Source: Ligilactobacillus cholophilus (GTDB taxonomy: Bacteria; Bacillota; Bacilli; Lactobacillales; Lactobacillaceae). Taken from it: a stretch of 64,000 nt of DNA. Shown one piece after another: positions 11,543 through 32,722 of the stretch. The notes under the pieces are model-generated. The model saw only the letters and a program-made list of their open reading frames with translations. It had not been told where the DNA came from and searched no databases. The stretch is from contig NZ_CP127832.1 of assembly GCF_030389495.1 (NCBI RefSeq), positions 930,001 through 994,000 on the forward strand, written 5' to 3'. Numbering within the stretch: position 1 is the first letter of the stretch; each line of letters begins with the position of its first letter. Made by a program: the position numbers and the translations under genes.

Positions 11543-11567
11543 AAAAGACCTCATTTGAGGTCTTTTG
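11543..11567 (-). terminator. Terminator at the end of the lanA...bceS operon
   Basis: The stem AAAGACCTCA/TGAGGTCTTT with a two-base loop is followed by T residues on the minus strand. It overlaps the last codons of the kinase gene. It divides the biosynthesis-regulation operon from the transporter operon. Confidence 0.75.
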
Positions 11568-12537: not shown

Positions 12538-13207
12538 CACATAATGCATATCCTTTTCCTCGAAATGTTTTTATATATGTATCTAATTTAATTCCCCTTA
12601 GTTTTTTACGTAATCTTGTAATTGAAACTTGTAATGCATTATTATCTATAAAATTTTCATTATTCCAAAGAACATGCATTATTTTTTCTTTTGAAACAAT
12701 ATTATTTAAATTTTCAAATAATACTTTTAAAATAATAAATTCATTTGTAGTTAAAATAATATCCTTATTTCCTAATGTTACTTTAGACGTGACTAAATTT
12801 AAAGTATATGATTTGAATTTAAGTTCATTATTACTATTGCTAAACTCATATGTTCTACGAAGTAATGCTTTTATTTTTGCAATCAATATATCTATATCAA
12901 AAGGTTTTTCAATATAATCATCAGCCCCAGCGCTTAATGATGCTACGGCATTTATACGTTTCTCAGCGGATGAGATAAAAATTATTGGACAAGTAGAAAA
13001 ATCTCTGATTTTATTTGTCCAATAATAACCATCACTTTCAGGAAGATAAATATCCATCAATATAATGTCAGGATTAAATTCCATAACATTTAACATAATA
13101 TTATGAAAATCTTGAGGATAACTTATTTGAAAACCTCTTTTCTTTAAAGCATGTGATAATTGAAATACAATTTCTTTATCATCCTCTATTATAAAAACTT
13201 TGTTCAT
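12518..13207 (-). CDS. BceR-type OmpR-family response regulator
   Basis: 229 residues from the ATG at 13207, preceded by GGGGAAAAG; the in-frame ATG at 13225 lies further inside the exporter gene and has no site. The receiver domain has the acidic pair near the start (IEDDKE), the phosphorylation Asp in IILMDIYLPE and the conserved Lys in EKPFD. The winged-helix C-terminal domain ends RKKLRGIKLDTYIKTFRGKG. It overlaps lanT by 29 bases and the kinase gene by about 20, so it is part of the lan operon. It probably binds the inverted repeats upstream of lanA and of the transporter genes. Confidence 0.88.
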   Translation of the reverse strand: MNKVFIIEDDKEIVFQLSHALKKRGFQISYPQDFHNIMLNVMEFNPDIILMDIYLPESDGYYWTNKIRDFSTCPIIFISSAEKRINAVASLSAGADDYIEKPFDIDILIAKIKALLRRTYEFSNSNNELKFKSYTLNLVTSKVTLGNKDIILTTNEFIILKVLFENLNNIVSKEKIMHVLWNNENFIDNNALQVSITRLRKKLRGIKLDTYIKTFRGKGYALCDEKKGI

Positions 13208-14825
13208 GTACTTTTCCCCTTTCAATAAGTTTTTTATTTTTTAATTCTAGTACTCTACTCTTTTTATTTATTTGACTAATATTATGAATTACTTCAATTA
13301 CAATAATATTATTTAAATTTAGATATTCATACATTCTTTTTCTTATAATATTATTATTTTTTTCATCAATATTAGCAAATGCTTCATCAAGTAATAGTAC
13401 ATCGCATTTCCTTAATAAACCTCTTGCTAAAATAAAACGCTGAATCTGACCATATGAAAAATTATTACCAAATTCACCAATACTTAAATCTAAGCCTTCT
13501 TTATATGTTTTAACTATTTGATCCATATTTACAATATGTAATACGTTCCAAAGATCTTTTTCAGAATAATTTTTAGAGTTAAACGTTAAAAATTCCCTTA
13601 ATGTCCCAGGTATAATGACCTTTTCATCTGAAATATAATTAATTCTATTTCTTAATTGAAATATTTTAAATTCAGAAAGTGGTACATTATTAATTAAAAT
13701 ATCTCCTTTTGTTGGATAAATAAAACCTATTATTAAATTTAATAATGTAGATTTTCCAACGCCACTTTCACCAATAACAGAAATATAATCTCCTTTTTTT
13801 AAACTCAAATTTAATTTTTCCAAAATATTTGATTCATCGTATGAAAAACTCACATTTTTAAATTGAATCGTGTCTATATGATTAATATTTTTTCCAAAAT
13901 TAATTTTATTCTTTAACTTACAATATCCTATAATATGAACAATACTTCCATTTAATAATTTGAATTGTGCAACAAATTGCATAACTTGCATTATGGGATT
14001 TACAACTTGATTTAAATAAATAATGAAAATCGTAGCCGATCCAATAGATATAGTTTTATTTCTTACTTCTAAAATACATAATAAAACTACTATAATGGTT
14101 ACAAATAACATCATAATATTTATAAGAGGTGAATATAAACTAAATATTTTAATTCTCTTCATACTTTCTTTATAAAGACTTTGATTCATATGTGAAAATT
14201 TGTTATAAGCATAATCTTGAGCATTAAAACTTTTAATATCTTTAAGATTTCCACGTAATTGAGAAGTAATATTTATCAGTTTGGCTTTTCTTTCCTGAAT
14301 TTTCTCACCAATAATATTCAATTTTCTAGAAAAGGGAATAATTATGATAACTATTAAAAAACATATTATACAAAGTTCAATAGACATCTTATTACTTATA
14401 CGAAACATCATAATAATGGAACATATGCCTATAATTAAAGAATTAAATGTTTGTGGAAAAGTTGATGTTAAAAAATTTTCAATTAGCTCAATATCATTAA
14501 CAATATGCCCTCCAACTTCCGATGAATCATCTTTTATAGAAGATGAATCCAAAATCTTTGACCAAATACTATTTCGAGTATTTAAAATTATATTATTTCC
14601 AACATATGAGATCATAAATTGAGATATAATGCTTAATATAAAAATATTAATTCCAATTATTAAGAGAAGAATAGTATATCTTATAGGATTAGAAACATCA
14701 ATTAGTATTTTTATCATATATGTCAGTCTTACTGTAAGGAGTCCGGTTACTATTTCTATTACACATCCTAAAAAATATAAAATATAGTCTTTTTTACTTA
14801 AACTTAAGATATTAAGCCATTTCAT
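13179..14825 (-). CDS. lanT: Lantibiotic exporter, ABC transporter LanT
   Basis: 548 residues: an N-terminal membrane domain with about six segments (to about residue 300), then an ATPase domain with Walker A GESGVGKST, Walker B VLLLDEAFANID and the degenerate signature FSYGQIQRFILARGL. There is no N-terminal C39 peptidase. That is typical of class I lantibiotic exporters, where leader removal is done outside by LanP. The start overlaps the lanP stop (TGATG) and has AGGAGG upstream. It exports the modified precursor. The signature motif lacks the usual LSGGQ, which is common in LanT proteins of this group. Confidence 0.9.
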   Translation of the reverse strand: MKWLNILSLSKKDYILYFLGCVIEIVTGLLTVRLTYMIKILIDVSNPIRYTILLLIIGINIFILSIISQFMISYVGNNIILNTRNSIWSKILDSSSIKDDSSEVGGHIVNDIELIENFLTSTFPQTFNSLIIGICSIIMMFRISNKMSIELCIICFLIVIIIIPFSRKLNIIGEKIQERKAKLINITSQLRGNLKDIKSFNAQDYAYNKFSHMNQSLYKESMKRIKIFSLYSPLINIMMLFVTIIVVLLCILEVRNKTISIGSATIFIIYLNQVVNPIMQVMQFVAQFKLLNGSIVHIIGYCKLKNKINFGKNINHIDTIQFKNVSFSYDESNILEKLNLSLKKGDYISVIGESGVGKSTLLNLIIGFIYPTKGDILINNVPLSEFKIFQLRNRINYISDEKVIIPGTLREFLTFNSKNYSEKDLWNVLHIVNMDQIVKTYKEGLDLSIGEFGNNFSYGQIQRFILARGLLRKCDVLLLDEAFANIDEKNNNIIRKRMYEYLNLNNIIVIEVIHNISQINKKSRVLELKNKKLIERGKVHEQSFYNRG

Positions 14826-16174
14826 CAGTTTCCTCCTAATGCACTATATACATTTATCTCTTTATATCCATCATTTGTAGTTGTTGTTTTATTTAACAAA
14901 ATATATTTTGCTGCCCAAGGCCTTTCTTTAAGTCCAAATGTACTCATTATTTCGGCCAATTCACCTGATACTTTTCCTGTAGATACAGATGTTCCATTAA
15001 AATAGTTATAATTTCCATCATTACTTGTAGATAAAATTGATTCTTGCATAAATAATTTGTCTTCATACCATTTCTTTTCTCCATACTTATTTAATAATTC
15101 TGTTCCACCTCCAGGAGCCAAAACAAAATGAGAATCATATTTATTGAAATGATTGCTAAATGATGAAATCCTGTTATTATTATCTGAAGATCCAACTGCA
15201 ATCGTATTATTTAAACAAGCTGGTAAATCAATTACTTGATAATTTAAATTTCCAACAGTACCATTTTCTTTTTCATATAATTTTTTTAATGAAGTAGGAT
15301 CTTCTCCTATACCATCATTTCCAACAGCGGAGACTACTATAACATTGTGTCTTTCCGCATAATCTAATGCCAACTTATAGCCAATAGCATCAGCAGAATT
15401 AAAGAAATTACCTTGTGGCAATTTAACATATTGTCCTAAACTTAAATTTATTATATCTGCACCATTATTTACTGCATCAATTATGGCTCTTAAAACCCAA
15501 GATTCTTTGGACTTTGATTTACCAAAAACACGATAAATTTGCAATTCTGCACCCGGAGATACTCCATATATTTGACCATTAGCAGAGACTTGTCCCGCAA
15601 CTGCAGTTCCATGTCCTTTAAAATCTTGTAAGTTATCTTTATTTCCTTTTTCTTCAGGTTCAGTATTGTCATATCCTCCAGCAGGAACTAAATTTTCAGA
15701 ATGTTTAAAATCAATTGATCCTTTAAACGCTTCATGAGAAGTATCAATTCCGGAATCAATTATGGCCACATTTATTAATTTTCGATTATTATGATTTATT
15801 CTATATGATTTCCCACTGTTTGTTATTCTATTCATTCCCCACTGATATGAAAATAGTTTAGGTAAATAATTAGGCTCTGGTTGAGCTACTACAGAATCTC
15901 CAAATAAATCCGGGTCTGTTTGATTTACTGTATCTTCTATACATTTTATGTTTTTATCTTCTAAACGAATTTGTTCTTTAGTAAGAGATCCATCTGTTTC
16001 AATATATCCAATTTCTGGAATAGATGTTTTAATTGTCATATGGTTCGATTGTAAATAAGAAAGCGTTTGATTATAATTATCTGTGATAATGTTAAATTGA
16101 TTTGCATCAACTTCATAATTTGAGAATAAAAAAGTACAAAATAAACTTAGCAAAATTAACTTAATTTTTTTCAT
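14825..16174 (-). CDS. lanP: Lantibiotic leader peptidase LanP (subtilisin-like, secreted)
   Basis: 449 residues. A signal peptide (about residues 1-24) and a pro-region of about 80-100 residues precede an S8 protease domain. The catalytic triad can be placed at Asp140 (IIDSGID), His188 (GHGTAVAG) and Ser396 (NGTSVSTG), with oxyanion Asn285 (AVGND). There is no LPXTG anchor, so the enzyme should be released or loosely held. By analogy with EpiP and MutP it removes the leader after the Arg in PDTR. It directly follows lanD (the two touch) and is coupled to lanT. Confidence 0.92.
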   Translation of the reverse strand: MKKIKLILLSLFCTFLFSNYEVDANQFNIITDNYNQTLSYLQSNHMTIKTSIPEIGYIETDGSLTKEQIRLEDKNIKCIEDTVNQTDPDLFGDSVVAQPEPNYLPKLFSYQWGMNRITNSGKSYRINHNNRKLINVAIIDSGIDTSHEAFKGSIDFKHSENLVPAGGYDNTEPEEKGNKDNLQDFKGHGTAVAGQVSANGQIYGVSPGAELQIYRVFGKSKSKESWVLRAIIDAVNNGADIINLSLGQYVKLPQGNFFNSADAIGYKLALDYAERHNVIVVSAVGNDGIGEDPTSLKKLYEKENGTVGNLNYQVIDLPACLNNTIAVGSSDNNNRISSFSNHFNKYDSHFVLAPGGGTELLNKYGEKKWYEDKLFMQESILSTSNDGNYNYFNGTSVSTGKVSGELAEIMSTFGLKERPWAAKYILLNKTTTTNDGYKEINVYSALGGN

Positions 16175-16726
16175 CTATTTTATCCTTCCTAAAATATTTT
16201 TTATATCATTGAATAATTCTTCTAAAGATGGAAGTACAATATTTTTTTTCATTTTTCCGCTTGCAATTTCAAAGCATTCTTTCTTATCTCTCACAATAAT
16301 TTTATAGTTAGTGTTTTCTAATTTCTTTATATTTCGTTGAACTATAATATTTTTCCACATTAGGTTATTCATACAAGGATAAATTAAAACATTGCCATTA
16401 AATGATATTAAGAAAGTTGTCATAAACGTATCTGCAATCCCATTTGAAATTTTTCCTATAATATTAGCAGTGGCAGGGATAACAATAACTATGTCTGCCC
16501 ATCTTGCTAAATTAATATGATTTTTCTCTTTGTCAGAAAAGGAAACATTATCTGAATATACATGTTCACAAATCATATTTGCTGATGATATTGGTAATAT
16601 TTTTTCCCCATTTTCAGTTAAAATAATTCTAACATGCTTAAATTTGGCAGTTAAAAATGCAATATATTCAGTAATTCCTAATGTAGCTCCTGAACCACAT
16701 ATACATAAAACAATATTTTTTTCCAT
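16175..16726 (-). CDS. lanD: Peptidyl-cysteine decarboxylase LanD (flavoprotein, EpiD-like)
   Basis: 183 residues of the HFCD flavoprotein family. The motif IPATANIIGKISNG corresponds to the PASANT motif of EpiD, and PCMNNLMW to the PXMNXXMW substrate/FMN motif. A His in KNHINLARWAD matches the active-site His. It oxidatively decarboxylates the C-terminal Cys of the precursor; the product forms the S-aminovinyl-cysteine ring with Ser19. The precursor ends SYCC, the exact end known to be accepted by EpiD. It lies between lanC and lanP, the order found in epidermin and mutacin clusters. Confidence 0.93.
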   Translation of the reverse strand: MEKNIVLCICGSGATLGITEYIAFLTAKFKHVRIILTENGEKILPISSANMICEHVYSDNVSFSDKEKNHINLARWADIVIVIPATANIIGKISNGIADTFMTTFLISFNGNVLIYPCMNNLMWKNIIVQRNIKKLENTNYKIIVRDKKECFEIASGKMKKNIVLPSLEELFNDIKNILGRIK

Positions 16727-16744: not shown

Positions 16745-18007
16745 TTAATTTAAAAGAAAAATTTCATTCCATTTTGCAATATTATTATTTTGTACTACTG
16801 ACAAATATTCTAATAATACTAATAAAACACCTAATGTACCAGATAACAACCCAAAATTATCCCAATAAGTATAGTACTTTTCCTTTATGTTCATACTATC
16901 TTCTACATCTATAAAACCAAATTCATATTGTTTAGAATATGTATTTAAAATTTTATCAACCAATTTATTTGCACATTTTAAATACGTGGAATTCGATGTT
17001 CTTTTATACTGTAAAAGTAAATAAGCTAATTGTCCTGATAATCCATGACAAAAAGTTGGAGATACTATCTGGACATATTTGCGGTTTAATATAGAGTTAT
17101 TAGTATCATACATTTGATTAATATCTTTATTATCATTAATTACTTTCCTAACAATGTAGAGTGTATTATAAATACCCAAATCACCATAACACCAACCATT
17201 TCGAGAATTAAAATCACCTTCTTCTCTATAACAATCCCACCGTATAGGCCAAAAATATCCGAATTGATCTTTTTTTGAATATTTTTGTATAATTTCTATA
17301 TTTTTCATTAAATAGTATTTATTTTCATAGTCAGATAATTTTAAACGTTGGTATAATGCCATAATGACCGTTGGTCCAATAAATCCATGTGCCAAGCCAA
17401 AATTAACATTGCCCTTAATAAAATAATTCTTTTCATCATTTAGAAATTGATATTTTCTAGGAATTATCCAACCTTGCTCAGAAGCAAAATAATATTTTTT
17501 TAAAATTTTTTTTACCAAGGCAATATTAAAATCACTTGGCCTAGATAATAAATATCTAGCAATTCCTGCATTTCCTAAAACAGTATCATACTCTAATGGA
17601 TTAACAGCATTTTTATACTCTATTTTTTTTAACCTTTTATATAATAATTCATGAATCTTATTATCAATTAAATCAAGATATTTATCATATTCTCCATGTA
17701 TATTAATATAATTTATTGCATATCCGATCCCTGATAAGCCCTCAAATAATGATATACTATGAACATATTTTAAATTTTTTAAAATTAAGCTTACAAGTTG
17801 TACTTTTTCTTTAGATAAATCAATAGTTGGAAATAAGTTTTCTAATTCTTGATAATAAATTAATATTGCAGGTAATCCGGATGAAAGTGAAAATATATTT
17901 TGGCAATCTGTTCTTTTTAAATTCTTTGTTTTTTTAATCAATGATTCAATATTTAAAAAATATCTTTGTTCATCGATTATATTTTTTATTTTATTTAAAT
18001 TATTCAT
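16745..18007 (-). CDS. lanC: Lantibiotic cyclase LanC
   Basis: 420 residues from the ATG at 18007, which has GAGG nine bases upstream; an ATG at 18022 precedes that site and is less likely. The zinc ligands are visible: Cys in NGWCYGDLG and the Cys-His pair in TFCHGLSG, with the catalytic His in GLAHGF. It forms the thioether rings by adding Cys thiols to dehydroamino acids. It overlaps the end of lanB by eight bases and precedes lanD by 18 bases. The length is normal for NisC/EpiC-type enzymes. Confidence 0.93.
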   Translation of the reverse strand: MNNLNKIKNIIDEQRYFLNIESLIKKTKNLKRTDCQNIFSLSSGLPAILIYYQELENLFPTIDLSKEKVQLVSLILKNLKYVHSISLFEGLSGIGYAINYINIHGEYDKYLDLIDNKIHELLYKRLKKIEYKNAVNPLEYDTVLGNAGIARYLLSRPSDFNIALVKKILKKYYFASEQGWIIPRKYQFLNDEKNYFIKGNVNFGLAHGFIGPTVIMALYQRLKLSDYENKYYLMKNIEIIQKYSKKDQFGYFWPIRWDCYREEGDFNSRNGWCYGDLGIYNTLYIVRKVINDNKDINQMYDTNNSILNRKYVQIVSPTFCHGLSGQLAYLLLQYKRTSNSTYLKCANKLVDKILNTYSKQYEFGFIDVEDSMNIKEKYYTYWDNFGLLSGTLGVLLVLLEYLSVVQNNNIAKWNEIFLLN

Positions 18008-20957
18008 TATCTTTAACCTCATTTAAAAACAATTCATACCTCTTGGACGCTAAAATTTTATTTACAATGAACATTATTTCTTTTTCTACTTTTGAATTTA
18101 TTCCAAATACTCTGTTACATCTCATATGTATTAAACTTCCAATAATTCGCCATTTACTGGTTGTTAAATCACTATTTTTTAACATAACTTTTAATTTTAA
18201 AGTTATATCTTTCATATTTTTATCACAAAAACTTTCAACATTTGTTTTATCATCATGATTATATAAATGGTTTACAATTTTATTTATTGATTCATGATAT
18301 TTCTTCTCATATTCTCTATTTGATTCTGTGGGATTATAAAGATTTGATATAAGAAAACGTTGTTCATTTATAGTTAAACCAATATTTTTCAAAAAATATA
18401 ATATACTTAACGCAGTAAAGATTTTAGTATGTTTATTTTGTTTAATAATTAAAATAGCTAAAATGCTATCAAAATAAAAGAAATCATGAATTACGCAAAG
18501 ATATTTTTCTCCACCATATCTATATATTTCTGGAATATACTGAGTCACTTGAAAATCAGATATCGTAAATGTTTTATATAATAAAGGCATATACTTTGTA
18601 AATTTTAAATATAAATCACCCTTTTGAGTTTCGTCACATTTAATGCGTAACCGAATACTATCTTTGCCTTCCTCCTTATATCGAATAAAAAACCATTTAT
18701 CTTGACCTTTTACACCTAAATAATTTAACAATTTAAATAATTCGTTTTTAATAAAAGCATTTTGATTATCTTTATTTATTATCAATTTTACATAAAAATA
18801 ATTACGATCCACATTGTTGACTGAATAAATATTTTCTGGAACATAATTAACCATATTAGACTTTACATTTTTATTTATAAATGGAATGACTAATTCAATA
18901 TTTCTATTCTTATTTGTTGCTTTAAGTAATTCTACTAAACTATATTTTTTAATATTCTCATAAAGAATTTTTAAATCGATTTGCCTATGCAAATTCAAAT
19001 AAATAGTATGGTCAAAATATTTTAGTTTTACAAGATTAGGAACATTATTTTTACAGATCCATTTTTTTAAATCATCAACAGAAGATATCTCTTCTTCTTT
19101 TATATTCCATGTTTCTGGTCTTAAAACTATATTTTTATACATAACAGCAGGTGTATGTTTAAATTCATCAAATATATCAGAAATAATAGGCGTTACTCCT
19201 GAAAATTTGAAATTTGAAACTTCAATTAAAAAGCGTAATAGTTTAGATCCCTTTTGATAATTAAACATATTATTCATTACAAAAATAATTTTTTTCTTAT
19301 ATTTTTTTGAATAAAAATATAGTTCTTCACTTGTAGCACCAACATAGATATCAGATAATAAAATAGATTTTTTGCTATTATCTGAGTAATTTCTTAATTC
19401 TAACTTCATATCATCTAAATCATTGCACATTTGCACATTTGCTGATCTCCCATAATATGGAATCTCATCTATTTGTGCAATAATAGTATCAGCAAAAGTT
19501 TTATGGATTGTCTTATTTAATAAATCAGAATTTTTTTGCATAATATCATTACCCAATCCATTATAAAAACGTCCAAAAGATGCACCTACATTAGGTGAAA
19601 TATTTGCACCACTTAGTTCAAATCTTCCGGTACTTTTATCGTATAATGTATAGAGGTCGCCCGAAAGTTGTCCTGGTCTAAAGTTTTCATCTAATCCAAA
19701 TTCTTTTACTTTATTCTTTGTTAGTTTAATACTTTTATTTTTATTCAAAGCATCTGCTATTTCTCTTAAGAAAAAATTTTTTATTTTATTATTTCTTTGA
19801 TTAGACAATAATTTTTCATTTTTATCTTCATAATTACTAGGAAATCCTATTCCTGAAGAAGAATTTAATAACTGTTGAATTGGTACTAACTGCTCATATC
19901 CATAAGTTCCAATAAACTGCTCATGATATTGTTTTAGCACTTCTTTTGAATTTGTATCAAATGAAATAGAATCTAAAATAGCTATTACTTCCTCAAGAGA
20001 TTTTTTTAAGTCAAGATTAATATATTTTTTTTGTGAATTAAATAGATCCACTCTTAAATATTCTTTATTTTCAACCAAATTTTCCATTCGATATTTTAAT
20101 TCTTTGATGAGCTCTTCTCCATTACCGAGTTCTAAATTCTCATATTGCTTCATTAATTGTTTTATATCTTCTAATTCATCAATGAAGCTTTTAGATAAAT
20201 GATACTTTTCACAAAGGTTAATTAAATGTACTAGCGGATCCGTACTAATTAAACTAAAATTAAATTCTGAAATTAGTAATTCTTTACGTTCTAATTTTTT
20301 TATAAAATTAAATACTTTTTCAGCAGGTAAACTAAATTCCTTTGATATTATCTTTGTAAGTTTCTGAATTTTTATTGGTTTTCTTGCAAGATACATAATT
20401 CGATCTATTAAATTATTTGAACGAATTTTAATATCTTTAGAAAAATTATTATCTTTAGTTAATCCCCCATTAGTTCTAGTATCTAAAAACCAATAATTAT
20501 CATTTTTTTGCAAAGCATTATTAATAATTAAATTTATATTTTTATACACGTCTGGATCATTTTTTATTTTGTTATATAACTTATACATCCATAATGAGTC
20601 TGCATTTACCTTTTTATAGTAATTTTTTTTATCATTTTCGCGTATATTATCAATGAAATTACCAATACCCACACAAGAAAAAATTCCAAAAGGAGTGGTC
20701 CTAGTATTATATCTGGAATAATATTGAAATAATGATCTGCGAATCTTTCTTATTTTCTTTTTATTTATAAAGTCTTGATCTAATTTTTTTATAGATGATA
20801 CAAGTGATGGGCTAGCTAATAAAGTTCCTTCTTTAAAAATAGCATCATTTTTATATGCAAATAGTAAATCATTAAAGTTTTTAATTTTCAAAAAATTATT
20901 AAGATTACCCAAAGGTTCTCTATACATAAAGTAATTGCTTAAATCATAATTGTTCAT
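18000..20957 (-). CDS. lanB: Lantibiotic dehydratase LanB (full length, class I)
   Basis: 985 residues, the normal size of a class I dehydratase. The N-terminal two thirds is the glutamyl-tRNA-dependent glutamylation domain; the conserved N-terminal RTTPFGIFSCVG segment is near residue 90. The last third (from about residue 700, FYVKLIINKD... IRLRIKCDE) is the SpaB_C-like elimination domain. It dehydrates Ser and Thr in the core of the precursor. The start has AAAGGAG eight bases upstream. It is separated from lanA by a strong hairpin, which probably lowers enzyme expression relative to the precursor. Confidence 0.93.
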   Translation of the reverse strand: MNNYDLSNYFMYREPLGNLNNFLKIKNFNDLLFAYKNDAIFKEGTLLASPSLVSSIKKLDQDFINKKKIRKIRRSLFQYYSRYNTRTTPFGIFSCVGIGNFIDNIRENDKKNYYKKVNADSLWMYKLYNKIKNDPDVYKNINLIINNALQKNDNYWFLDTRTNGGLTKDNNFSKDIKIRSNNLIDRIMYLARKPIKIQKLTKIISKEFSLPAEKVFNFIKKLERKELLISEFNFSLISTDPLVHLINLCEKYHLSKSFIDELEDIKQLMKQYENLELGNGEELIKELKYRMENLVENKEYLRVDLFNSQKKYINLDLKKSLEEVIAILDSISFDTNSKEVLKQYHEQFIGTYGYEQLVPIQQLLNSSSGIGFPSNYEDKNEKLLSNQRNNKIKNFFLREIADALNKNKSIKLTKNKVKEFGLDENFRPGQLSGDLYTLYDKSTGRFELSGANISPNVGASFGRFYNGLGNDIMQKNSDLLNKTIHKTFADTIIAQIDEIPYYGRSANVQMCNDLDDMKLELRNYSDNSKKSILLSDIYVGATSEELYFYSKKYKKKIIFVMNNMFNYQKGSKLLRFLIEVSNFKFSGVTPIISDIFDEFKHTPAVMYKNIVLRPETWNIKEEEISSVDDLKKWICKNNVPNLVKLKYFDHTIYLNLHRQIDLKILYENIKKYSLVELLKATNKNRNIELVIPFINKNVKSNMVNYVPENIYSVNNVDRNYFYVKLIINKDNQNAFIKNELFKLLNYLGVKGQDKWFFIRYKEEGKDSIRLRIKCDETQKGDLYLKFTKYMPLLYKTFTISDFQVTQYIPEIYRYGGEKYLCVIHDFFYFDSILAILIIKQNKHTKIFTALSILYFLKNIGLTINEQRFLISNLYNPTESNREYEKKYHESINKIVNHLYNHDDKTNVESFCDKNMKDITLKLKVMLKNSDLTTSKWRIIGSLIHMRCNRVFGINSKVEKEIMFIVNKILASKRYELFLNEVKDNE

Positions 20958-20975: not shown

Positions 20976-21021
20976 ATATAAAGATAGGGAGAGAATTAAT
21001 TCTCTCCCCTATCTTTATAAA
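20976..21021 (-). terminator. Attenuating hairpin between lanA and lanB
   Basis: A nearly perfect inverted repeat with a 19-21 bp stem and one bulge (AAAGATAGGG.GAGAATT with AATTCTC.CCCTATCTTT) starts two bases after the lanA stop. It lacks a strong T run on the minus strand. It is therefore better read as a leaky terminator or RNA-stabilising structure, as seen after many lanA genes. Confidence 0.7.
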
Positions 21022-21204
21022 CTAGCAACAATAACTGTTAAAGCTTCCAGTATGTGCACATCCTGGAGTACATAAGGAGTAACTTGTAAGCCGTGTATCA
21101 GGATCATCATTACTCATTACAATTGTTTCTGATTCATTTAAATCCAATAAATCAGATGTTGTTTGCTCATTTTCCATTACTTCTAATAATTGTTCTGTTG
21201 ACAT
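21022..21204 (-). CDS. lanA: Lantibiotic precursor LanA, epidermin/gallidermin/mutacin 1140 family
   Basis: 60 residues: a 38-residue acidic leader (MSTEQLLEV...SNDDPDTR) and a 22-residue core. The core is LTSYSL followed by CTPGCAHTGSFNSYCC. Ser3, Cys7, Thr8, Cys11, Ser16, Ser19, Cys21 and Cys22 match the ring positions of gallidermin: Lan 3-7, MeLan 8-11, Lan 16-21, AviCys 19-22. Ser5 and Thr14 should become Dha5 and Dhb14 as in mutacin 1140. The leader ends NDDPDTR like that of mutacin 1140. Compared with known members, positions 1, 2, 4 and 13 (Leu, Thr, Tyr, His) are new as far as I know, and no Lys or Arg remains in the core. GGGAGG lies upstream of the ATG. No second lanA' copy is present. 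Confidence 0.96.
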   Translation of the reverse strand: MSTEQLLEVMENEQTTSDLLDLNESETIVMSNDDPDTRLTSYSLCTPGCAHTGSFNSYCC

Positions 21205-21258: not shown

Positions 21259-21287
21259 ATAGTACTTTATACATCTGTTATTATCAA
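21259..21287 (-). promoter_or_regulatory. Promoter of lanA
   Basis: On the minus strand TTGATA (21282-21287), a 17-base spacer and TACTAT (21259-21264) lie 55 to 83 bases upstream of the lanA ATG. The -35 region is inside a small inverted repeat (CTGTT...AACAG). The -10 is imperfect, as expected for a promoter that needs an activator. Confidence 0.6.
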
Positions 21288-21307
21288 CAGATTCATCAAT
21301 GAAAGTT

Positions 21308-21323
21308 ATTACATTTTTGTAAT
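21308..21323 (-). promoter_or_regulatory. BceR-like operator upstream of lanA
   Basis: A perfect palindrome ATTACA-TTTT-TGTAAT fits the published BceR-type consensus TnACA-N4-TGTAA. It lies 20 bases upstream of the -35 of the lanA promoter, a typical activator position. The rest of the gap (21324-21449) is AT-rich; I see no gene there. Confidence 0.7.
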
Positions 21324-21449: not shown

Positions 21450-22019
21450 TTAAAATGCTTTTAATACCATTACTTTATCTTGTTGTTTGTTATACGTAAA
21501 TTGATAATGAATCGTCTGTTTACTATCAGATTCATTACTATTCGTTTGCACTGTTCCAATAAACACACCATTGATATCATCACCATCAACTTTTTCTGGT
21601 GAAAAATAAATATTTGATTCAACTAAAGTTGATGAAGCGTTTAAATTTTGTAACTGCTTTTGAGCTTGATTATTCTTTTGCGTCCCATTACCACCACCAA
21701 AATACTGAATCACGCCTTTAGTTGCATATTCTTCAGCGGTTTGTTGATTAGTTAACCAATTATTTGCGTCCCAATTTTCTAAATGATTAAATAAATGTTG
21801 GACTGTTTCATAAGTTTGTTTAAATTCATTTTGATTATTTTTTTGGTCAATCACTTCACTTTTACGTTTTAACTTTGTATTCTGCTTTTGTAATTTTTCA
21901 ATTTGTGTACTTTGTGTCTGGTTATCTTGCTTAAGATCTTGGTTACTGTGCCACAAAACCAAACAGAATATAACTAACATGCTACAAGATAATATCCATA
22001 CAAAATTTTTCTTTTTCAT
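21450..22019 (-). CDS. Conjugation protein, membrane-anchored, VirB8-like fold suspected
   Basis: 189 residues. One N-terminal membrane segment (about 7-24) is followed by a short coiled coil (Gln/Lys-rich, about 28-62) and a C-terminal globular domain facing outwards. The size and layout resemble VirB8/TcpC-like assembly factors of Gram-positive conjugation systems, but the family match is not clear from sequence alone. AAAGGA precedes the ATG. It is the last gene of the transfer operon, next to the lantibiotic cargo. Confidence 0.55.
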   Translation of the reverse strand: MKKKNFVWILSCSMLVIFCLVLWHSNQDLKQDNQTQSTQIEKLQKQNTKLKRKSEVIDQKNNQNEFKQTYETVQHLFNHLENWDANNWLTNQQTAEEYATKGVIQYFGGGNGTQKNNQAQKQLQNLNASSTLVESNIYFSPEKVDGDDINGVFIGTVQTNSNESDSKQTIHYQFTYNKQQDKVMVLKAF

Positions 22020-22042
22020 TTTAGTTATTCCTTTCTTTTACT

Positions 22043-23125
22043 TTAATGATGATAGAGATTTTCTTTAATTCTGCCATATCTAATTTTAGTGATATTACTA
22101 TAATCTGGATTATTCTTTGGCCAGACTTTCTCTTGAATAATCCCACTTAATTGTTCATCAATCATTTCTCCATTGCCAATGTAAATACCTACATGACATA
22201 ACTCACCTTCATCAGCGCTATCAAAAAAGACTAAATCTCCCGCTTTCGCATCTTTTTCATTCACTTCATCACAGGCTTGATGAAACTGTTGTTCTGCCGT
22301 GCGTGGTAATGTTACTCCAATCTTGCCAAATGCCCATAAAGTAAATCCAGAACAGTCCGTCGCCCCATGTACCGCTTTGGCGGTCGCGGTATTATCTAAA
22401 GAACCTGGATTACCACCATAACTATAATTTTGTGGCACTTGATCGACCCATTTATGTGCCCACTTTGATAAGTCGTTCCACCAAGGATCTGTGGGACCTT
22501 TCACAGCTAATGCCTTACCTGCTTCGGCATTACAAGTTGCGTTTGTATCAGTAATTTCCGTTGAATTATCATTTGTAACTGTCGTTTTACTATCTTTGAG
22601 TTTGTTATACCAATTAACTGCATTTTGTGTTCTTAAATCATTTCTTGCCTCTGCACTTCCAGCCCGTTCAAATCTTAACTCCCATTGAACCGCTGCGGTT
22701 GCGGGATCAGTTTGTGATTTAGCATAATCTCCTAAATTAGCTTTTTCTGCACCATTGGCTTCCTCATATAAAAACATGATTTGTGCTTGAATACTGTCAG
22801 GATCCTTGCCATGTTGTTTGGCAAAATTTTGTTCATTTGTTAACCGATCACCTAACCACTGACAAATTCCATGTGCCCCTGATGTTGGATTGGTTGAAGT
22901 CGGATTAATTTGTGATTCTTGTTGTAAATTCCCTAAAATTCCCGCCACGGAAGCTGGCGTCCAGCCTTTACTAATTAGAAAACCCCATAATTGTTTTGCA
23001 TTTTTCTCTTGATCTTTAGAAATATTATTACCTTGTAAATTCAAATTATTTGCACAATCTAAATCCATGGTTTCAGATTTATTATTAATTGAACCAAACA
23101 TTGAAATCATCATTACAATTAACAT
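22043..23125 (-). CDS. Conjugation-associated cell wall hydrolase: lysozyme-like plus NlpC/P60 (Tn916 Orf14-like)
   Basis: 360 residues as read. Residues about 45-170 form a phage-tail-lysozyme-like domain (GWTPASVAGILGNLQQES). Residues about 215-355 form an NlpC/P60 peptidase with Cys in TDCSGF and His in CHVGIYIG. It opens the peptidoglycan for the transfer channel. The listed start (ATG 23125) has no ribosome binding site. An ATG at 23183, one base after the upstream gene's stop and behind AGAAGGG, is out of frame by one base because of an A10 run at 23133-23142. With nine A the protein would begin MKHWKKWLIIILLPFF and gain the expected N-terminal membrane anchor. So this is a frameshift, slippage site or sequencing error. 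Confidence 0.85.
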   Translation of the reverse strand: MLIVMMISMFGSINNKSETMDLDCANNLNLQGNNISKDQEKNAKQLWGFLISKGWTPASVAGILGNLQQESQINPTSTNPTSGAHGICQWLGDRLTNEQNFAKQHGKDPDSIQAQIMFLYEEANGAEKANLGDYAKSQTDPATAAVQWELRFERAGSAEARNDLRTQNAVNWYNKLKDSKTTVTNDNSTEITDTNATCNAEAGKALAVKGPTDPWWNDLSKWAHKWVDQVPQNYSYGGNPGSLDNTATAKAVHGATDCSGFTLWAFGKIGVTLPRTAEQQFHQACDEVNEKDAKAGDLVFFDSADEGELCHVGIYIGNGEMIDEQLSGIIQEKVWPKNNPDYSNITKIRYGRIKENLYHH

Positions 23126-23184
23126 AATGATTAAAAAAAAAAGGCAAAAGGATAATGATTAACCATTTTTTCCAGTGTTTCATA

Positions 23185-25104
23185 TTAATCACGCCCTTCT
23201 CGTAAATCTTCTAAACGTTGCTGATAATTTTCTTGTTTTTGCCGTTTAGTAACATCATTTAAGTCCTTTTCTGCTTTTCTAAGTTGTTGCTTGTTATGAT
23301 TATTAATATCAGACATTTGCAATCTTTGTTCATTAGTATTGATTTGTTGATGATGACTTTCATTATGCTGATTTAAATTGTGTTGCTGATTATCATAAAT
23401 ATTTTGTTGTTTGTGATTAATATTTGATTGTTTAATATCATTATGAAAATGTTTTTCTTGATGAATTTGGGGTTGTTTTTGTTGACTACGTTCCTGCTTT
23501 TGTGGCTGTTGTGTATCCGTTATATGAATAGTTTTCTCTTGCTTTTGATTAATATTATTCTGTTCTTCACGTGGTTTACTTGTTTTTTGCTGATTTTGAA
23601 TATCTGATCCATTTTCATTAGCTGACTTGTTATCTTGTTTATTTGGATTTACAGTTCCATTTTGTGGTGTTCGTTGAACTTGCTTCATTTTTTCTTGTGC
23701 TTCAGCAACGTCATTAGTGGTTTCATTTGGCTTTACGCCATTTTTAAAAACTAAAATTCGTTCTTTAACTTTATTTAATCTGTCTTTGCCACGCTCAATT
23801 CGATTATTCCATGTATGAAATTTCTCTACGGCTTGTTCTTTTTGATTTTGAATCGTTGTAATCACTTGCTTTGAAGTTACTTGATTTAAACGTCCACCCG
23901 TTAATTTTTGAATAATCTTATTCCGGTTCTTCCATGCAAAAATTAAAATCAAGTAAAAAATAAACGCATTGAGAAAATATCCGGATAATGAATTTGGTGG
24001 AATGATAATATCAATCACGCTTTGACAAAGATTAATCCCTAAAATTGCTAAGACTAAAATAGCTTTAGAAATAAATAACATAAAAACGTCCATTAAACCC
24101 TTAAAAAAGCTATCTGAGTATTTCGGAATTAAACTCAATAATGCCATTACTGGTAATAGTAAATCTAATAAAAGCGCAAAAATCTGAACTGCTAAGTTAA
24201 TAAAACCAACCATAAATAATGGAATTCCATATGCCAATGAGACTAATGGTGAAAATAAAGTAATTAACACTTTATAGTACATATAGCTTTTTTTCGTATA
24301 TTTAGTACCATCTTTTTTTACTTTATTTTGGATTTTATCTGAATCTTTATCATAATTTGCACTTAAAAATTCATAAGGATCTTTTTTATCTTTTTCAACA
24401 GCTTCCGCACTGGTTTCACCATAATTCATTAAATAATATGGTCGCTCGATTGCTTCTTCAAAATAGGTTTTACGGACAACGTCCGTTGCACTGGCATTTT
24501 TAACTTTTTCAGAATCATCTAATGTCATTAATTGGCTTTGAGCGGTTGTTGAAATTGAATTAAACGTTTTTAACACAAAACTTGAATTTTTAAACCATAC
24601 CATCGAAAAGCCAACAATAATCAAAGATAATAACACCCGTTTAATTCCGTCTTTTTCATTTTTAAAGGCAAAATGATAAAATCCCGCAATTACTGCTAAT
24701 ACAAATAAGATAATTCCAAATTTACCAAAAATTGAATCCCATAGGTTACCGGTCAAATCTGTTACATGATCTATTAAGTCATTAATCGCATCATTAACTG
24801 TTGAAGCCCCAAACATTAATTTCAAAGCATAATCAAAAATTTGATAAACAAACCGATTAATCTCCCAGAAAAAGCCAGCTAATCCTGTCATTGCTTTAAA
24901 AATAATTTCCGTTAAACCAGCTTTTTCCATATAAGGATTAAATGAATCTAACGTTTTAGAGATGTCATTCATGTTATAACTTTGAAGAATATCTTTAACG
25001 CTTTCCGCATGCACATTGATTACACTTGCTAATAAAAAAAGACTAATAGTTAAAACTATCAGTCCAAATTTTAAATATTTATCTTTTATATTCTTTTTAT
25101 CCAC
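23185..25104 (-). CDS. Polytopic conjugation membrane protein, VirB6/TcpH-like (Tn916 Orf15-like)
   Basis: About 639 residues. An N-terminal signal-like segment is followed by several membrane helices up to about residue 400. A long hydrophilic tail follows that is extremely rich in Gln, Asn, His and Lys (about 450-640) and is probably cytoplasmic. It should form the inner-membrane channel of the mating apparatus with VirB4. The start is a GTG at 25104 behind AGGTGAG; a GTG at 25113 is also in frame. The gene ends one base before the likely start of the hydrolase gene. Confidence 0.8.
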   Translation of the reverse strand: MDKKNIKDKYLKFGLIVLTISLFLLASVINVHAESVKDILQSYNMNDISKTLDSFNPYMEKAGLTEIIFKAMTGLAGFFWEINRFVYQIFDYALKLMFGASTVNDAINDLIDHVTDLTGNLWDSIFGKFGIILFVLAVIAGFYHFAFKNEKDGIKRVLLSLIIVGFSMVWFKNSSFVLKTFNSISTTAQSQLMTLDDSEKVKNASATDVVRKTYFEEAIERPYYLMNYGETSAEAVEKDKKDPYEFLSANYDKDSDKIQNKVKKDGTKYTKKSYMYYKVLITLFSPLVSLAYGIPLFMVGFINLAVQIFALLLDLLLPVMALLSLIPKYSDSFFKGLMDVFMLFISKAILVLAILGINLCQSVIDIIIPPNSLSGYFLNAFIFYLILIFAWKNRNKIIQKLTGGRLNQVTSKQVITTIQNQKEQAVEKFHTWNNRIERGKDRLNKVKERILVFKNGVKPNETTNDVAEAQEKMKQVQRTPQNGTVNPNKQDNKSANENGSDIQNQQKTSKPREEQNNINQKQEKTIHITDTQQPQKQERSQQKQPQIHQEKHFHNDIKQSNINHKQQNIYDNQQHNLNQHNESHHQQINTNEQRLQMSDINNHNKQQLRKAEKDLNDVTKRQKQENYQQRLEDLREGRD

Positions 25105-25176
25105 TTTTCTCACCTACTTAATCCAACCCACCCACCACTTACTTAATTAATATCAAATAAAATTAACTCTACTTCA

Positions 25177-27672
25177 TTAATCGTATAATTCTTCACTTGC
25201 CGAAGAAGCTGATTTATTAATCGTTTTAAAGGAACTCGTCATTTCATCAAATAAAGAATGTACGGCAATTTTACCCACACGTCCGTATATATCTCTAAAT
25301 AAACATTGTCCTTTAATCATGTTGGCTAACCAGTTTAAATTTTGTTCATTTACTGGTAACTGCACATGTTGTAAAATTTGTTCTCGTTCAGAAGGTTCAT
25401 CAAATGCAAATAATACCCCAAATTGTCCATGATCTTCTTGATCAGTAATATCAGCGACCGACTGGGTCGCATACAATAACATGTTATTTTGCGAACGACC
25501 GACCCGTTTCATCGACTTAAGAATTTTCTTACCGTCTTTAGCTACATTAAAAATCCATGCTTCGTCAAAAACTTCTGCTGTATAAGTATTAGTATCATCA
25601 GAACCAAATTTTTCACAAAACTTACCTAATGGAATCATTAACGCCACTGATTTCTTTTCTAAATCAGAATAATTATCGGGATTATCGCCTTCTTTTGGCA
25701 ATTCCAATCCTGAAACTTCCAAAATATTAATCCGTTCTTGTAAAGAAACGGCATCATTAGTTCCGTCAGAAAAGCCTAATTGTAAAACTGAATCCGTAAC
25801 CATTTCATACAACAAATTGCCTGCACCACGAATTTCAGGATCATCACTCTTTTGTAGAATCTCAATTACATTTAACATACCAACTTTCTCACCTAGTTCA
25901 CGTTGATTAATTACAGTTTTAATTGCTTTTAGAATTGCCGTCTTAGCAGTATCTTTATCTTTGGTTGAATAAATTTGTTCGATCATCGCTTCTGCTGTGT
26001 CCTTTGCGTCCGAACCTTTAAGAAAAACAATCGGATCTAAGACACCCCAGTTTTTCTTATCGGTGGCATCTAAAGTTACATAATGAAAAGATTTTAGATG
26101 ATTAACAAATAGCGGGTACTTTTCCTGCATTTCTTGATTCTCAATAACTTGATTAAACCAATGGCGAATTTCTTTTTTCGGGTCAATGTATAAAAGACGT
26201 GTTTTCATAAATGACATATAAATAAAGAGTAATTTTACTAAGAAAGATTTTCCTTTACCAGTTTCACCGGTAACCGCAATATGTGGACTATCTGTTTTAG
26301 CACCTTTAATTCCTTTATTGGCAATTGTCGGATTAAAAAGTACAATTTTACGGCTAGAGTAAATTGATTGTTCCAACGATTGACTTTCTGCCATATCATC
26401 AACTCTGCCAATATACCAACCAACATTATTACCTAAGCGATTACTTACCGCAAATAAATTTTCCGCAAAACCTTCATTATTTGTAACTTGAATCCAGTTT
26501 TTCGCTCCTTGAATTGATTGACCTTGGAGTAGCTGATAAAAAAGTGATAATTGATCAGCATTAGGACGGTAAGCATCAATTTCTCTTAAACCTAAGCGGT
26601 TAATTAAACGATCACTTCGTTCTTTAATCTCATCTTTATCATGACCAGTAATCACAAAACATGCTAACCATCTTAAAATCGCTTTGCCATCTTCAATATC
26701 ATTTTGAAGTTCATCAACCAATAATTGATTAGTTACGTTGCGTTGACTATCACGTTCTCCGGTTTGATAGGCTTCTTGACTACTACTTTTAAATCTTCTT
26801 CTCAAACGTGAAAGTTGCGAATTTAGCCCATTTAGCCCTTCAACTTCTTCATATTGTGCTTTAATTTGTAATTCTACGGGAAACTTTAAACTTTGTGCCA
26901 CTTCATATAAATGTGTAAAACTAATATTATCAGGTAAAGCACCAACTGGAATAAAAGCAACATAACTACTACCATTTTCATTTTCTAACTTGAGATAGCC
27001 TTTTTCAGTTGGATCTAAAATTGTATCCGTAATTTTATACAAATCATGTTCTTTACCTGTTGCTAAAACGTTATGTGGTAATTCTCTTAAAAAGTTGTAA
27101 TGCAACAGGTACGCTAATTCATTCTCACTGACTGGCGAGCCGTTAATGGTTCGCATAACTGAATCTAACTCATTTAAATCTTCACTAAATTGCTTAAAAT
27201 AACTAGCATCAACTTCCATATCATAACCAACGGCAGTTAAGAGTTTTCTCACTAAATAATCATAAGAATCTTTAACCACACCTTTCATATTATCAGAAGT
27301 TTGAAACGTCTTAAGTTTAACGCCAACTAAAAATTCTTCATCAGTAATTGTGCCTAACTCATATTCTAATTGTTTCACCGTTTCATTTGCATAATAATGT
27401 GCAACATCATCAGCGCTTGGTGAAAAATCCTTCGCTAAATGATTAAACCGATCGGCTAAATTCATATCTTTAGGCAACATCATTAAATGTAATTCTTGAT
27501 ATTTGGATAATGTCCCATATACAAACGCCATCGTCTTTTTATTTTGTTCTTTATGTTCTAAATCATTAATCGCAATGCTTTCAGGCTTAATTTTATAATA
27601 TGCCCACACATCACCCGTTTTTGTAAGTAATAAATTGTCTTTAAATAACTTAAATGGAATTTCTAACTCCAT
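25177..27672 (-). CDS. VirB4-like conjugation ATPase (Tn916 Orf16-like)
   Basis: 831 residues. Walker A GETGKGKS lies at about 469-476, and the Walker B EVFDEAWIFN is near residue 705. It powers assembly or transport in the type IV-like secretion apparatus and acts at the cytoplasmic face of the membrane. AGAGG lies eight to nine bases upstream of the ATG. The neighbours on both sides are transfer genes in the order of Tn916. Confidence 0.92.
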   Translation of the reverse strand: MELEIPFKLFKDNLLLTKTGDVWAYYKIKPESIAINDLEHKEQNKKTMAFVYGTLSKYQELHLMMLPKDMNLADRFNHLAKDFSPSADDVAHYYANETVKQLEYELGTITDEEFLVGVKLKTFQTSDNMKGVVKDSYDYLVRKLLTAVGYDMEVDASYFKQFSEDLNELDSVMRTINGSPVSENELAYLLHYNFLRELPHNVLATGKEHDLYKITDTILDPTEKGYLKLENENGSSYVAFIPVGALPDNISFTHLYEVAQSLKFPVELQIKAQYEEVEGLNGLNSQLSRLRRRFKSSSQEAYQTGERDSQRNVTNQLLVDELQNDIEDGKAILRWLACFVITGHDKDEIKERSDRLINRLGLREIDAYRPNADQLSLFYQLLQGQSIQGAKNWIQVTNNEGFAENLFAVSNRLGNNVGWYIGRVDDMAESQSLEQSIYSSRKIVLFNPTIANKGIKGAKTDSPHIAVTGETGKGKSFLVKLLFIYMSFMKTRLLYIDPKKEIRHWFNQVIENQEMQEKYPLFVNHLKSFHYVTLDATDKKNWGVLDPIVFLKGSDAKDTAEAMIEQIYSTKDKDTAKTAILKAIKTVINQRELGEKVGMLNVIEILQKSDDPEIRGAGNLLYEMVTDSVLQLGFSDGTNDAVSLQERINILEVSGLELPKEGDNPDNYSDLEKKSVALMIPLGKFCEKFGSDDTNTYTAEVFDEAWIFNVAKDGKKILKSMKRVGRSQNNMLLYATQSVADITDQEDHGQFGVLFAFDEPSEREQILQHVQLPVNEQNLNWLANMIKGQCLFRDIYGRVGKIAVHSLFDEMTSSFKTINKSASSASEELYD

Positions 27673-27695
27673 AAATTAACCTCTTTTCACAACTC

Positions 27696-28004
27696 TTAAA
27701 AAAGTAAAAGCTCTTTTAACACTCTTTCTAAAAATGAAGATTGTAACTTTTCAACAATATCCCTGACATCATCTTCAAATAAATAACCATCTTCAATTCC
27801 CCGATAACGAGGAGTTCCTTTATACATACTGACTTTAATATGAAAAGCATTTGAAAAACGAAAACGTTCATTCATAAAGAATTTTCCTATATATTTAGGT
27901 TCTAGTTTTTTAAAACGTTTATCTAAGTCTAAAGTCTTCTCAACCCATAACATGTATTCAGCTTCGGCATGTTTTTCATCAAGTAATTCTTGTTTATTGT
28001 TCAA
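27696..28004 (-). CDS. Unknown small protein in the transfer operon
   Basis: 102 residues, soluble, mixed charge, no recognised motif. The start is TTG with AGGGGGC seven bases upstream. It overlaps the ArdA gene by 11 bases and precedes the VirB4 gene by 23 bases, so it is part of the operon. A role in transfer or in control of host defences is possible but not shown. Confidence 0.65.
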   Translation of the reverse strand: MNNKQELLDEKHAEAEYMLWVEKTLDLDKRFKKLEPKYIGKFFMNERFRFSNAFHIKVSMYKGTPRYRGIEDGYLFEDDVRDIVEKLQSSFLERVLKELLLF

Positions 28005-28476
28005 TCACAAAGCCCCCTTTAAGATAAATCCCACCAGAATTAATGCGATAATCTTGTCCTAATTTTTCATAATCAATGTAATATGATAATTTATCTGGAA
28101 CTTCACCGTATTCTTCATGTTCAATTAAATACATTCCCAATTCATCATCATCATGAATATTAGGAAAATAAATTAATTTATCTTGGTAACTTGTAATCAA
28201 ATCGTACATATCTTTAAACCACCCTTGATTAATTAATGCTTGTGCATTCTCAACAATATAATCTGGGGCTGTATCCATAAGTTGAGCTGTCTCATTTAAA
28301 TGTTGCAAATTATCATATTCATTAATTGTAAACGGCGCTTCATAATCAGTGATGGCAACTTCCCCATCATCAAGTTTTAACTTTTCATGAACTTTACTTA
28401 AATTAGTTGGTAGATCAAACCACTCCCCAAGATGATTATGAATATTTTCAACATAAACGCTAATAGTTTTATCCAT
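27994..28476 (-). CDS. ardA: Antirestriction protein ArdA (Tn916 Orf18-like)
   Basis: 160 residues, strongly acidic. The N-terminal SVYVENIHNHLGEWFDLP and the ITDYEAPF segment are typical of ArdA, a DNA mimic that blocks Type I restriction enzymes when the element enters a new host. AAAGGAGG precedes the ATG. It overlaps the TcpE-like gene upstream by eight bases and the next gene by 11, so it is embedded in the transfer operon. Confidence 0.9.
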   Translation of the reverse strand: MDKTISVYVENIHNHLGEWFDLPTNLSKVHEKLKLDDGEVAITDYEAPFTINEYDNLQHLNETAQLMDTAPDYIVENAQALINQGWFKDMYDLITSYQDKLIYFPNIHDDDELGMYLIEHEEYGEVPDKLSYYIDYEKLGQDYRINSGGIYLKGGFVIEQ

Positions 28477-28894
28477 GATTTTTTTCCTCCTTTATCTTGT
28501 AATTAAATGATTCAAACACATATTTTTGATCAATATAATTAGTTGCTACATCGTGGCAAATCTTCTTATGTTTTAACTTATAGTTAAAAAGATACCTAAT
28601 ATAATCTAATAGAAACCACATAATGTTTTTACCATCTGGTTGTAAGTGTTCAATGATTCTAACTACTAAATAAGGAACACCTAGATAAAAAACAATGCCA
28701 AATATTGAAATATAATGGTCAATAAAACTGACAAATTGATGTAAAAATAAAAACAGTAATAATAACGTCAACACATAAATCCCAATATCTCTTAATTTAA
28801 TAAAATATGGTAATGATACGTTATTCGTTAACTGTTTAATCTTAATCGGTTCATTAAAAACGTTACGATAATTGTAAATAGGATCTTTCTTCAT
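28469..28894 (-). CDS. TcpE-family conjugal transfer membrane protein (Tn916 Orf17-like)
   Basis: 141 residues with two close membrane segments (about 33-52 and 57-75) between hydrophilic ends. This is the pattern of TcpE, a small component of Gram-positive mating channels. It lies between the TcpD-like and ArdA genes and overlaps the latter. Confidence 0.75.
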   Translation of the reverse strand: MKKDPIYNYRNVFNEPIKIKQLTNNVSLPYFIKLRDIGIYVLTLLLLFLFLHQFVSFIDHYISIFGIVFYLGVPYLVVRIIEHLQPDGKNIMWFLLDYIRYLFNYKLKHKKICHDVATNYIDQKYVFESFNYKIKEEKNHG

Positions 28895-28908
28895 TTACAA
28901 TCATCTCT

Positions 28909-29160
28909 TTATCCAAATAACATCTTAAATAAATTGGCAATTGCCGTAAAAATCGTTTGCGGATCAGTAATTACAAACCAAACTAACCCAGCAAAGACCG
29001 CTAAGCCAACGGCTTTACCAATTTGTTGTTTAAAGACATATTTCAATAAAACAAACACCACAATCATAAATAAAATATCTTTTCCTTGAGTTACCCACCA
29101 ACTAGTTACGTTATCTAAACTTGGTAAAGTTGCGCCTAAAACAAACATTAAATTATTCAT
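28909..29160 (-). CDS. TcpD-family small membrane protein
   Basis: 83 residues from the ATG at 29160, which has AGGAGG eight bases upstream. Two membrane segments (about 27-45 and 52-70) and the TcpD-like spacing of the operon identify it. It overlaps the TcpC gene by eight bases. It probably sits in the transfer channel; a longer reading from 29199 would begin inside the neighbour without a site. Confidence 0.75.
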   Translation of the reverse strand: MNNLMFVLGATLPSLDNVTSWWVTQGKDILFMIVVFVLLKYVFKQQIGKAVGLAVFAGLVWFVITDPQTIFTAIANLFKMLFG

Positions 29161-30940: not shown

Positions 30941-30943
30941 TGC

Positions 30944-32716: not shown

Positions 32717-32722
32717 AAACTT

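Follow-up and report, generated by a model that had tools for sequence, protein, structure and literature searches.

A gallidermin-group lantibiotic gene cluster with a Bce-type sensor-and-pump module as predicted cargo of an integrative and conjugative element in Ligilactobacillus cholophilus

The 64,000-nucleotide stretch of the Ligilactobacillus cholophilus genome analyzed here (contig NZ_CP127832.1, positions 930,001 to 994,000; hereafter the window) very probably harbors a class I lantibiotic cluster of the gallidermin/epidermin/mutacin 1140 group that is carried as cargo by an integrative and conjugative element (ICE), and this high confidence refers to the cluster and the peptide class. 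Our confidence is lower for the Bce-type control of production and immunity that the adjoining genes suggest. With this cluster a group of drug leads would gain a peptide from a lactic acid bacterium that has a core combination unmet elsewhere in the searches made and is devoid of Lys and Arg. If the Bce-type reading is true, the locus would constitute a compact, movable system with production and self-protection under one sensor, and the timing of immunity versus production by producers would become directly testable.

The precursor gene lanA (21022..21204, minus strand), whose ORF runs from 21204 to 21022 with a GGGAGG ribosome-binding site upstream of its ATG, encodes a 60-aa peptide composed of a 38-aa leader ending in NDDPDTR (MSTEQLLEVMENEQTTSDLLDLNESETIVMSNDDPDTR) and a 22-aa core (LTSYSLCTPGCAHTGSFNSYCC). 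Its assignment to the gallidermin family by the first-pass annotation of this DNA was supported by scores of 75.1 bits for Pfam PF02052 Gallidermin (cut-off 21) and 55.2 bits for the gallidermin/nisin family model TIGR03731 (cut-off 29.3), and a chance ORF was rejected since two curated family models were exceeded. The score of 77.3 bits against the NCBI mutacin equivalog NF037999 was below the cut-off of 115, so that this model would not call LanA a mutacin; mutacin 1140 itself was rejected as the lanA product. All ring-forming residues of gallidermin are retained (S3, C7, T8, C11, S16, S19, C21 and C22), as previously claimed, and proved invariant across five aligned precursors. The core comprises seven Ser/Thr and four Cys residues and, lacking Lys and Arg, should carry less positive charge than mutacin 1140 or gallidermin. 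The leader end had likewise been ascribed to mutacin 1140, in agreement with Table 2 of PMC3930743, where mutacin Ny266 exhibits the same one.

Comparison to other precursors identified 18 of the 22 core residues as identical in the database precursors of Alkalihalobacillus macyae and Marininema halotolerans (hand count for both), and 16 in paraplantaricin TC318, which differs at six positions. Relative to the sequences that we take to be the cores of the classical members, identity was 18/22 for mutacin 1140, which differs at positions 1, 2, 4 and 13, 17/22 each for gallidermin and B-Ny266, and 16/22 each for epidermin and clausin. The combination of Leu1, Thr2, Tyr4 and His13 had been regarded as new, and the exact core was indeed met nowhere else in the searches made. 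Judged by the sequences compared, every unusual core residue except Leu1 has a precedent elsewhere: Thr2 is found in both the A. macyae and M. halotolerans precursors, Tyr4 in A. macyae, the two together in the A. macyae precursor as well as in nisin S, and His13 in paraplantaricin TC318 (PMC7372301). The stretch from residue 2 to 11 (TSYSLCTPGC) recurs unchanged in nisin S of Ligilactobacillus salivarius and that from 14 to 22 in gallidermin, and the precursors of A. macyae, Marininema and Priestia exhibit ITS(Y/V)S(F/L)CTPGC plus a gallidermin-type tail. The new aspect thus appears to be a peptide with an unmatched core combination, while the kind of cluster and a Lactobacillus relative were already known. 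The earlier view that known members are only staphylococcal or streptococcal did not hold, since paraplantaricin TC318 comes from Lactobacillus paraplantarum (PMC7372301).

The exact core was not found in the literature text searched, a search that leaves figures and supplements outside and absence from print unproven. Core-fragment word matches were obtained in the nisin S paper and in PMC11594732, and the tails TGSFNSYCC and TGSFNSFCC do occur in published text. Paraplantaricin TC318 was the only case of an epidermin-group lantibiotic in lactobacilli recognized in the literature searched, and its genes were not found in the collections searched. LanA matches at 0.001 were present in 16 of 72,556 plasmid records (Staphylococcus 4, Priestia 12), all with less than 60% identity and annotated as gallidermin or gallidermin/nisin family. 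Exact peptide patterns, which would miss relatives such as TC318, revealed three relatives out of 58 pattern matches on genome contigs. There was no LanA or LanB match on viral contigs, and the two LanB matches in phage records were both below 30% identity. Among the genome draws, which are samples and overlap, the source genome itself provided the only LanA match in the genus (1/26) and in the family sample (1/397), the order sample (4/395) added three genomes (G594, G605 and G610) with precursors that read as nisin-type, and an alignment-based search of the phylum sample (2/398) added G867 with a nisin-like precursor. The G594 locus (L006) contains six almost identical nisin-type precursor ORFs in tandem, and the M. 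halotolerans locus (L003) four consecutive gallidermin-type precursor matches, two of which read as ORFs.

The remaining biosynthetic genes are all encoded on the minus strand and include lanB (18000..20957; 985-aa dehydratase with PF04738 and PF14028, best solved relatives 9g04 and NisB [4wd9, 8.9e-52], motifs HMRCNR and FFIRY), lanC (16745..18022; 425-aa cyclase with PF05147, related to 8byk and NisC, motifs WCYG, CHG and LAHG), lanD (16175..16726; 183-aa cysteine decarboxylase for aminovinyl-cysteine [AviCys], MrsD 3.5e-37 and EpiD 2.1e-27, motifs HINL, PATAN and PCMNNLMW), lanP (14825..16174; 449-aa subtilase and leader protease, EpiP 1.9e-67 and NisP 6.3e-63, motifs IDSG, GHGT, GND and GTS) and lanT (13179..14825; 548-aa ABC exporter with PF00664 and PF00005, a Walker A motif and no peptidase domain matched). 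Full-length ORFs with the expected motifs, which we take to be tied to the catalytic sites, bear out the earlier statement that lanB, C, D, P and T are complete and none is broken. The LanP N-terminus resembles a signal sequence when read by eye; the hydropathy threshold listed no segment. LanT matched 22 plasmid records, all at less than 80% query coverage and, where named, annotated as ABC transporters. Separate LanB and LanC proteins plus a LanD flavoprotein decarboxylase are present as in the gallidermin/epidermin group. In a tree of ten LanBs that left out those of mutacin and TC318, the window LanB was placed with six AviCys-type LanBs (three staphylococcal and three from Bacillus relatives; 90/99) on an unstarred branch with a long row and an unsure place, and two nisin-type LanBs as well as one streptococcal LanB stood apart from this group.

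In the predicted pathway, LanB would dehydrate Ser and Thr residues of the core, LanC would close rings 3-7, 8-11, 16-21 and 19-22, and LanD would convert Cys22 to AviCys by oxidative decarboxylation, with LanT exporting the peptide and LanP presumably cleaving after DPDTR. Binding of lipid II through rings A and B is established for gallidermin and nisin, and by analogy the mature peptide would be expected to bind this target in the same way. Neutral monoisotopic masses computed by script were 2159.847 Da for six dehydrations plus AviCys and 2141.837 Da for seven, and the values near 2160 and 2142 Da calculated by hand in the first-pass annotation were right (2159.85 and 2141.84 Da). Position 2 of nisin is Dhb2, and if Thr2 is dehydrated as in nisin, seven dehydrations and a main product of 2141.84 Da are expected. 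For paraplantaricin TC318 the same script gives 2263.900 Da, which equals the published value (PMC7372301). Folding of positions 20958-21030 between lanA and lanB indicated a hairpin (20978..21019, minus strand; -25.4 kcal/mol, z -4.06) that may serve as a transcript stabilizer or partial terminator. Although it was also listed by a simple terminator scan, this hairpin was rejected as a plain terminator because the coding strand shows no clear run of T residues.

Adjacent to the biosynthetic genes and on the same strand are ORFs for a response regulator (lanR, 12518..13225; closest solved relative 5dcl, 4.8e-50, which we take to be NsrR), a BceS-like kinase (lanK, 11551..12549; BceS 8g3a, 3.3e-27) with two membrane segments and a very short loop according to hydropathy, a BceA/PsdA-like ATPase (10710..11450; PsdA 1.5e-62, BceA 2.3e-60) and a BceB/PsdB-like permease (8765..10693; PsdB 2e-26, BceB 3.3e-26). 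The ATPase has 246 aa with the start chosen at the ATG after AGGAGG, and the first ATG would give 255 aa. The hydropathy profile of the permease, with overlaps merged by eye, suggested roughly ten membrane segments, the seventh and eighth of which are separated by a loop of ~198 aa. A ten-segment permease with a large loop and a kinase without a sensor domain are features of the Bce class (PMC5786555). With an ATPase, a permease containing a large loop, an intramembrane-sensing kinase and an OmpR-type regulator, these four proteins are of the Bce type as judged by sequence. They resemble BceRS-BceAB, PsdRS-PsdAB and NsrFP-NsrRK in the homology of all four proteins, the permease loop of ~200 aa and the kinase lacking a sensor domain, and differ from these modules in residing inside the cluster of a lantibiotic producer and in a near-identical palindrome that is also present upstream of the structural gene.

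No match to MutE/MutG (LanE/LanG; TIGR03732 and TIGR03733) was obtained in the source genome at 0.001, a search that has no positive control since the cut-off of these models was passed in none of 14 control genomes and weak matches were seen in three each. A second, chromosomal BceB-like permease of this genome is 28% identical to the cluster permease and could contribute. BceB-like matches at 1e-10 were present in 17 of the 26 genus genomes including the source genome, and identities between the cluster permease and the other full-length genus matches ranged from 23 to 29%. The four gallidermin-type loci used for comparison (L002, L003, L004 and L048, of which L004 spans just 8.8 kb) yielded no BceB-like match, and no BceAB-like pump was detected on plasmids at 1e-20. 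A bceAB next to a nisin-like cluster is mentioned in PMC12506125.

Two palindromes, both listed without strand, are candidate operators of the response regulator: TTACATTTTTGTAA (21309..21322) upstream of lanA and TTACGTTTTTGTAA (11527..11540) upstream of the BceA-like gene, which are identical at 13 of 14 positions. The distance from the palindrome to the candidate -10 box, read by eye, is 45 bases for lanA and 44 bases for the pump, whose -10 box was chosen by eye and lacks a good -35. The candidate lanA promoter TTGATA-17-TACTAT (21259..21287, minus strand) is a pattern match at 9 of 12 positions, and promoter-like matches in the region are no commoner than in shuffles. An inverted repeat, ATCTGTT-N6-AACAGAT (21273..21292, no strand), overlaps the -35 box of lanA and is the sole exact match in the window, with two more places exhibiting two mismatches. 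The pattern of the twin palindromes, which was derived from the two sites themselves after seeing them, had two exact matches and one with a mismatch in the window versus 0.48 expected, and was reached in 0 of 5000 single-base shuffles, again with the pattern set post hoc. Of no more than 300 randomly drawn, size-matched pairs of regions from the AT-rich window, 16 share a 14-mer with one mismatch at most, and the looser pattern TNACA-N4-TGTNA was found twice versus 2.1 expected, with the pump site off by one base. The GraR target vraFG contains a palindrome with an ACA-N4-TGT core (PMC3128592), which the lanA site fits and the pump site misses by one base. Taken together, the twin palindromes are a lead for shared operators, and the evidence is modest.

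The mutacin 1140 locus has the gene order A-B-C-D-P-T and contains MutR and FEG. The present cluster shares this order together with the leader end NDDPDTR, and differs in that MutE/MutG are without match in this genome and the NF037999 cut-off is missed. The likeness to gallidermin and epidermin includes the AviCys decarboxylase and LanB, C, D and P proteins that are 32-39% identical to the pEpi56 enzymes. Local alignments with the enzymes of this epidermin plasmid resulted in 33.5% (LanB), 34.4% (LanC), 32.2% (LanD), 39.3% (LanP) and 26.8% (LanT) identity, and tblastn in 31.1, 32.2, 31.6, 36.1 and 26.2%, respectively. In contrast, pEpi56 carries FEG-type ABC immunity genes in another gene order, and the gallidermin/epidermin leader is unlike that of LanA, which has Thr2 and Ser5 in its core. 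The leaders of A. macyae and M. halotolerans are also unlike, the A. macyae LanB is 30% identical to the window LanB, and the 20-kb loci of A. macyae and Marininema lack BceB-like and LanP matches.

Paraplantaricin TC318 of Lactobacillus paraplantarum OSY-TC318 is an epidermin-group lantibiotic of 22 residues with His13, which was found by mass spectrometry and whose production is confined to solid medium (PMC7372301). Compared by published gene order, lengths and core, its cluster resembles the present one in the order A-B-C-D-P-T-R-K (listed as K-R-T-P-D-C-B-A), in separate permease and ATPase genes, in a mobile-DNA setting and in the sizes of LanT (547 aa in TC318 and 548 aa here), LanD (186 and 183 aa), ATPase (246 aa in both) and permease (649 and 642 aa) (PMC7372301). 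The TC318 permease and ATPase genes are located beyond lanA after a 114-aa ORF, whereas those in the window lie beyond lanK, and transposases flank the TC318 cluster, whereas the present one is ICE-borne (PMC7372301).

We propose that a single flux-sensing circuit controls production and immunity. The BceAB-like pump would free the target and thereby confer self-protection, the BceS-like kinase would read pump activity, and the regulator would activate both lanA and the pump via the twin palindromes. The broader proposal, that in the lactobacillar epidermin branch a Bce circuit replaced the usual regulator and LanFEG, with pump workload rather than peptide concentration setting lanA transcription, production thereby depending on how well the cell can protect itself, and the whole unit moving by conjugation, is a tentative one. 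A somewhat unlikely alternative to this circuit is that LanRK senses the mature peptide as a standard quorum sensor of the NisRK kind and that the Bce-like pump provides general resistance and is not an immunity device. Nisin expression is autoregulated through NisRK (PMC9958725), and Bce-type pumps are common in the genus (17/26 genomes). However, the best solved match of the kinase is BceS and it has two membrane segments with almost no loop between them, the pump adjoins the cluster on the element at 23-29% identity to the full-length genus matches, and LanE/LanG matches are absent from the model searches, which had no positive control.

Two further explanations concern the cluster itself. 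It is improbable that the genes are silent or defective, with open ORFs that yield no peptide or another one, for instance without AviCys; the ordinary match of the lanA -35/-10 boxes, the hairpin between lanA and lanB and a same-species genome without lanA and lanB matches would fit this explanation, but every biosynthetic ORF is intact in length and retains its motifs, a 2.9-kb gene such as lanB should have been disrupted under drift, and TC318, with the same gene order, is produced, on solid medium only (PMC7372301). An origin as a natural hybrid, in which nisin-type rings A/B were recombined with gallidermin-type rings C/D inside lanA, is suggested by the identity of residues 2-11 to nisin S and of residues 14-22 to gallidermin. 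Since A. macyae, Marininema and Priestia already display this combination, it is not peculiar to this cluster; in addition, the leader end matches mutacin and not nisin, and the window LanB stands apart from two nisin-type LanBs (90/99, unstarred, long branch). A hybrid origin was rejected as the main reading and is very unlikely.

The element that carries the cluster comprises ~38,647 bp (about 38.6 kb) between 17-bp direct repeats. Its attR core (CGGTGATCGGGGTCGAA; 36763..36779, no strand) is located at the 3' end of tRNA-Leu(CAA), the partner attL lies outside the window at genome positions 928116-928132, and the integrase (genome 928193-929431) is 0.6-1.8 kb to the left of the window. The conjugation module (21450..34848, minus strand) encodes NlpC/P60, AAA_10 ATPase, ArdA, TcpE, TcpC, a Rep_trans relaxase, an FtsK-type ATPase and two DUF961 proteins, and some of its ORFs have no Pfam match. 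The transfer genes (TcpC, TcpE, AAA_10, Rep_trans, FtsK, NlpC/P60 and DUF961) are presumably of the Tn916 type. The gene content, with integrase, direct repeats, relaxase, coupling ATPase and TcpC/TcpE/ATPase, agrees with the conjugative element named in the first-pass annotation and identifies, at the level of sequence, an ICE with a Tn916-type transfer module and the lantibiotic cluster as cargo. At the DNA level, no close plasmid match to the transfer module was obtained, and plasmid relatives of its ATPase were 39-46% identical among the matches listed (15 of 69 records). Class I lantibiotics on conjugative elements have long been known from Tn5276-type nisin elements and the suicin ICE, which share this type of cargo and carry another peptide (PMC12506125).

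In four genus relatives (L028-L031) an intact 3' part of tRNA-Leu was present in the same locus as the attL-flanking gene (with ARAGORN applied to two of these loci), which supports past insertion at this site. The gaps between flank and att core in L029, L030 and L031 (271, 253 and 396 bases) are near the 266 bases of the window genome and look like empty sites, and the gap of 1256 bases in L028 points to other DNA sitting there. The same-species genome G009 is occupied at this site by a related integrase end whose att core contains a single mismatch; on its contig C16 (L037) ~550 bases of the integrase region are missing and other DNA is found inside the related element at tRNA-Leu. Other pieces of the transfer module are present in G009 as well, with no LanA or LanB match in this genome, and in G025 a related transfer module is situated next to different genes. 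From these comparisons, the lantibiotic genes appear to be cargo that belongs to the present version of the element.

The transfer module includes an ArdA antirestriction gene (27994-28476). Two overlapping minus-strand ORFs match a type IIG restriction-methylase profile, with positions 204-1107 of the profile covered by ORF 1093-3789 and positions 1-189 by ORF 3771-4388, and are either split or frameshifted. A strong PADLOC match to the candidate defence family PDC-M49A was obtained at 6185-8290 (minus strand), where an SMC-type ATPase match was under the Pfam cut-off. At about 4900-5650 we noted an apparent remnant of an insertion-sequence transposase gene, according to our own reading.
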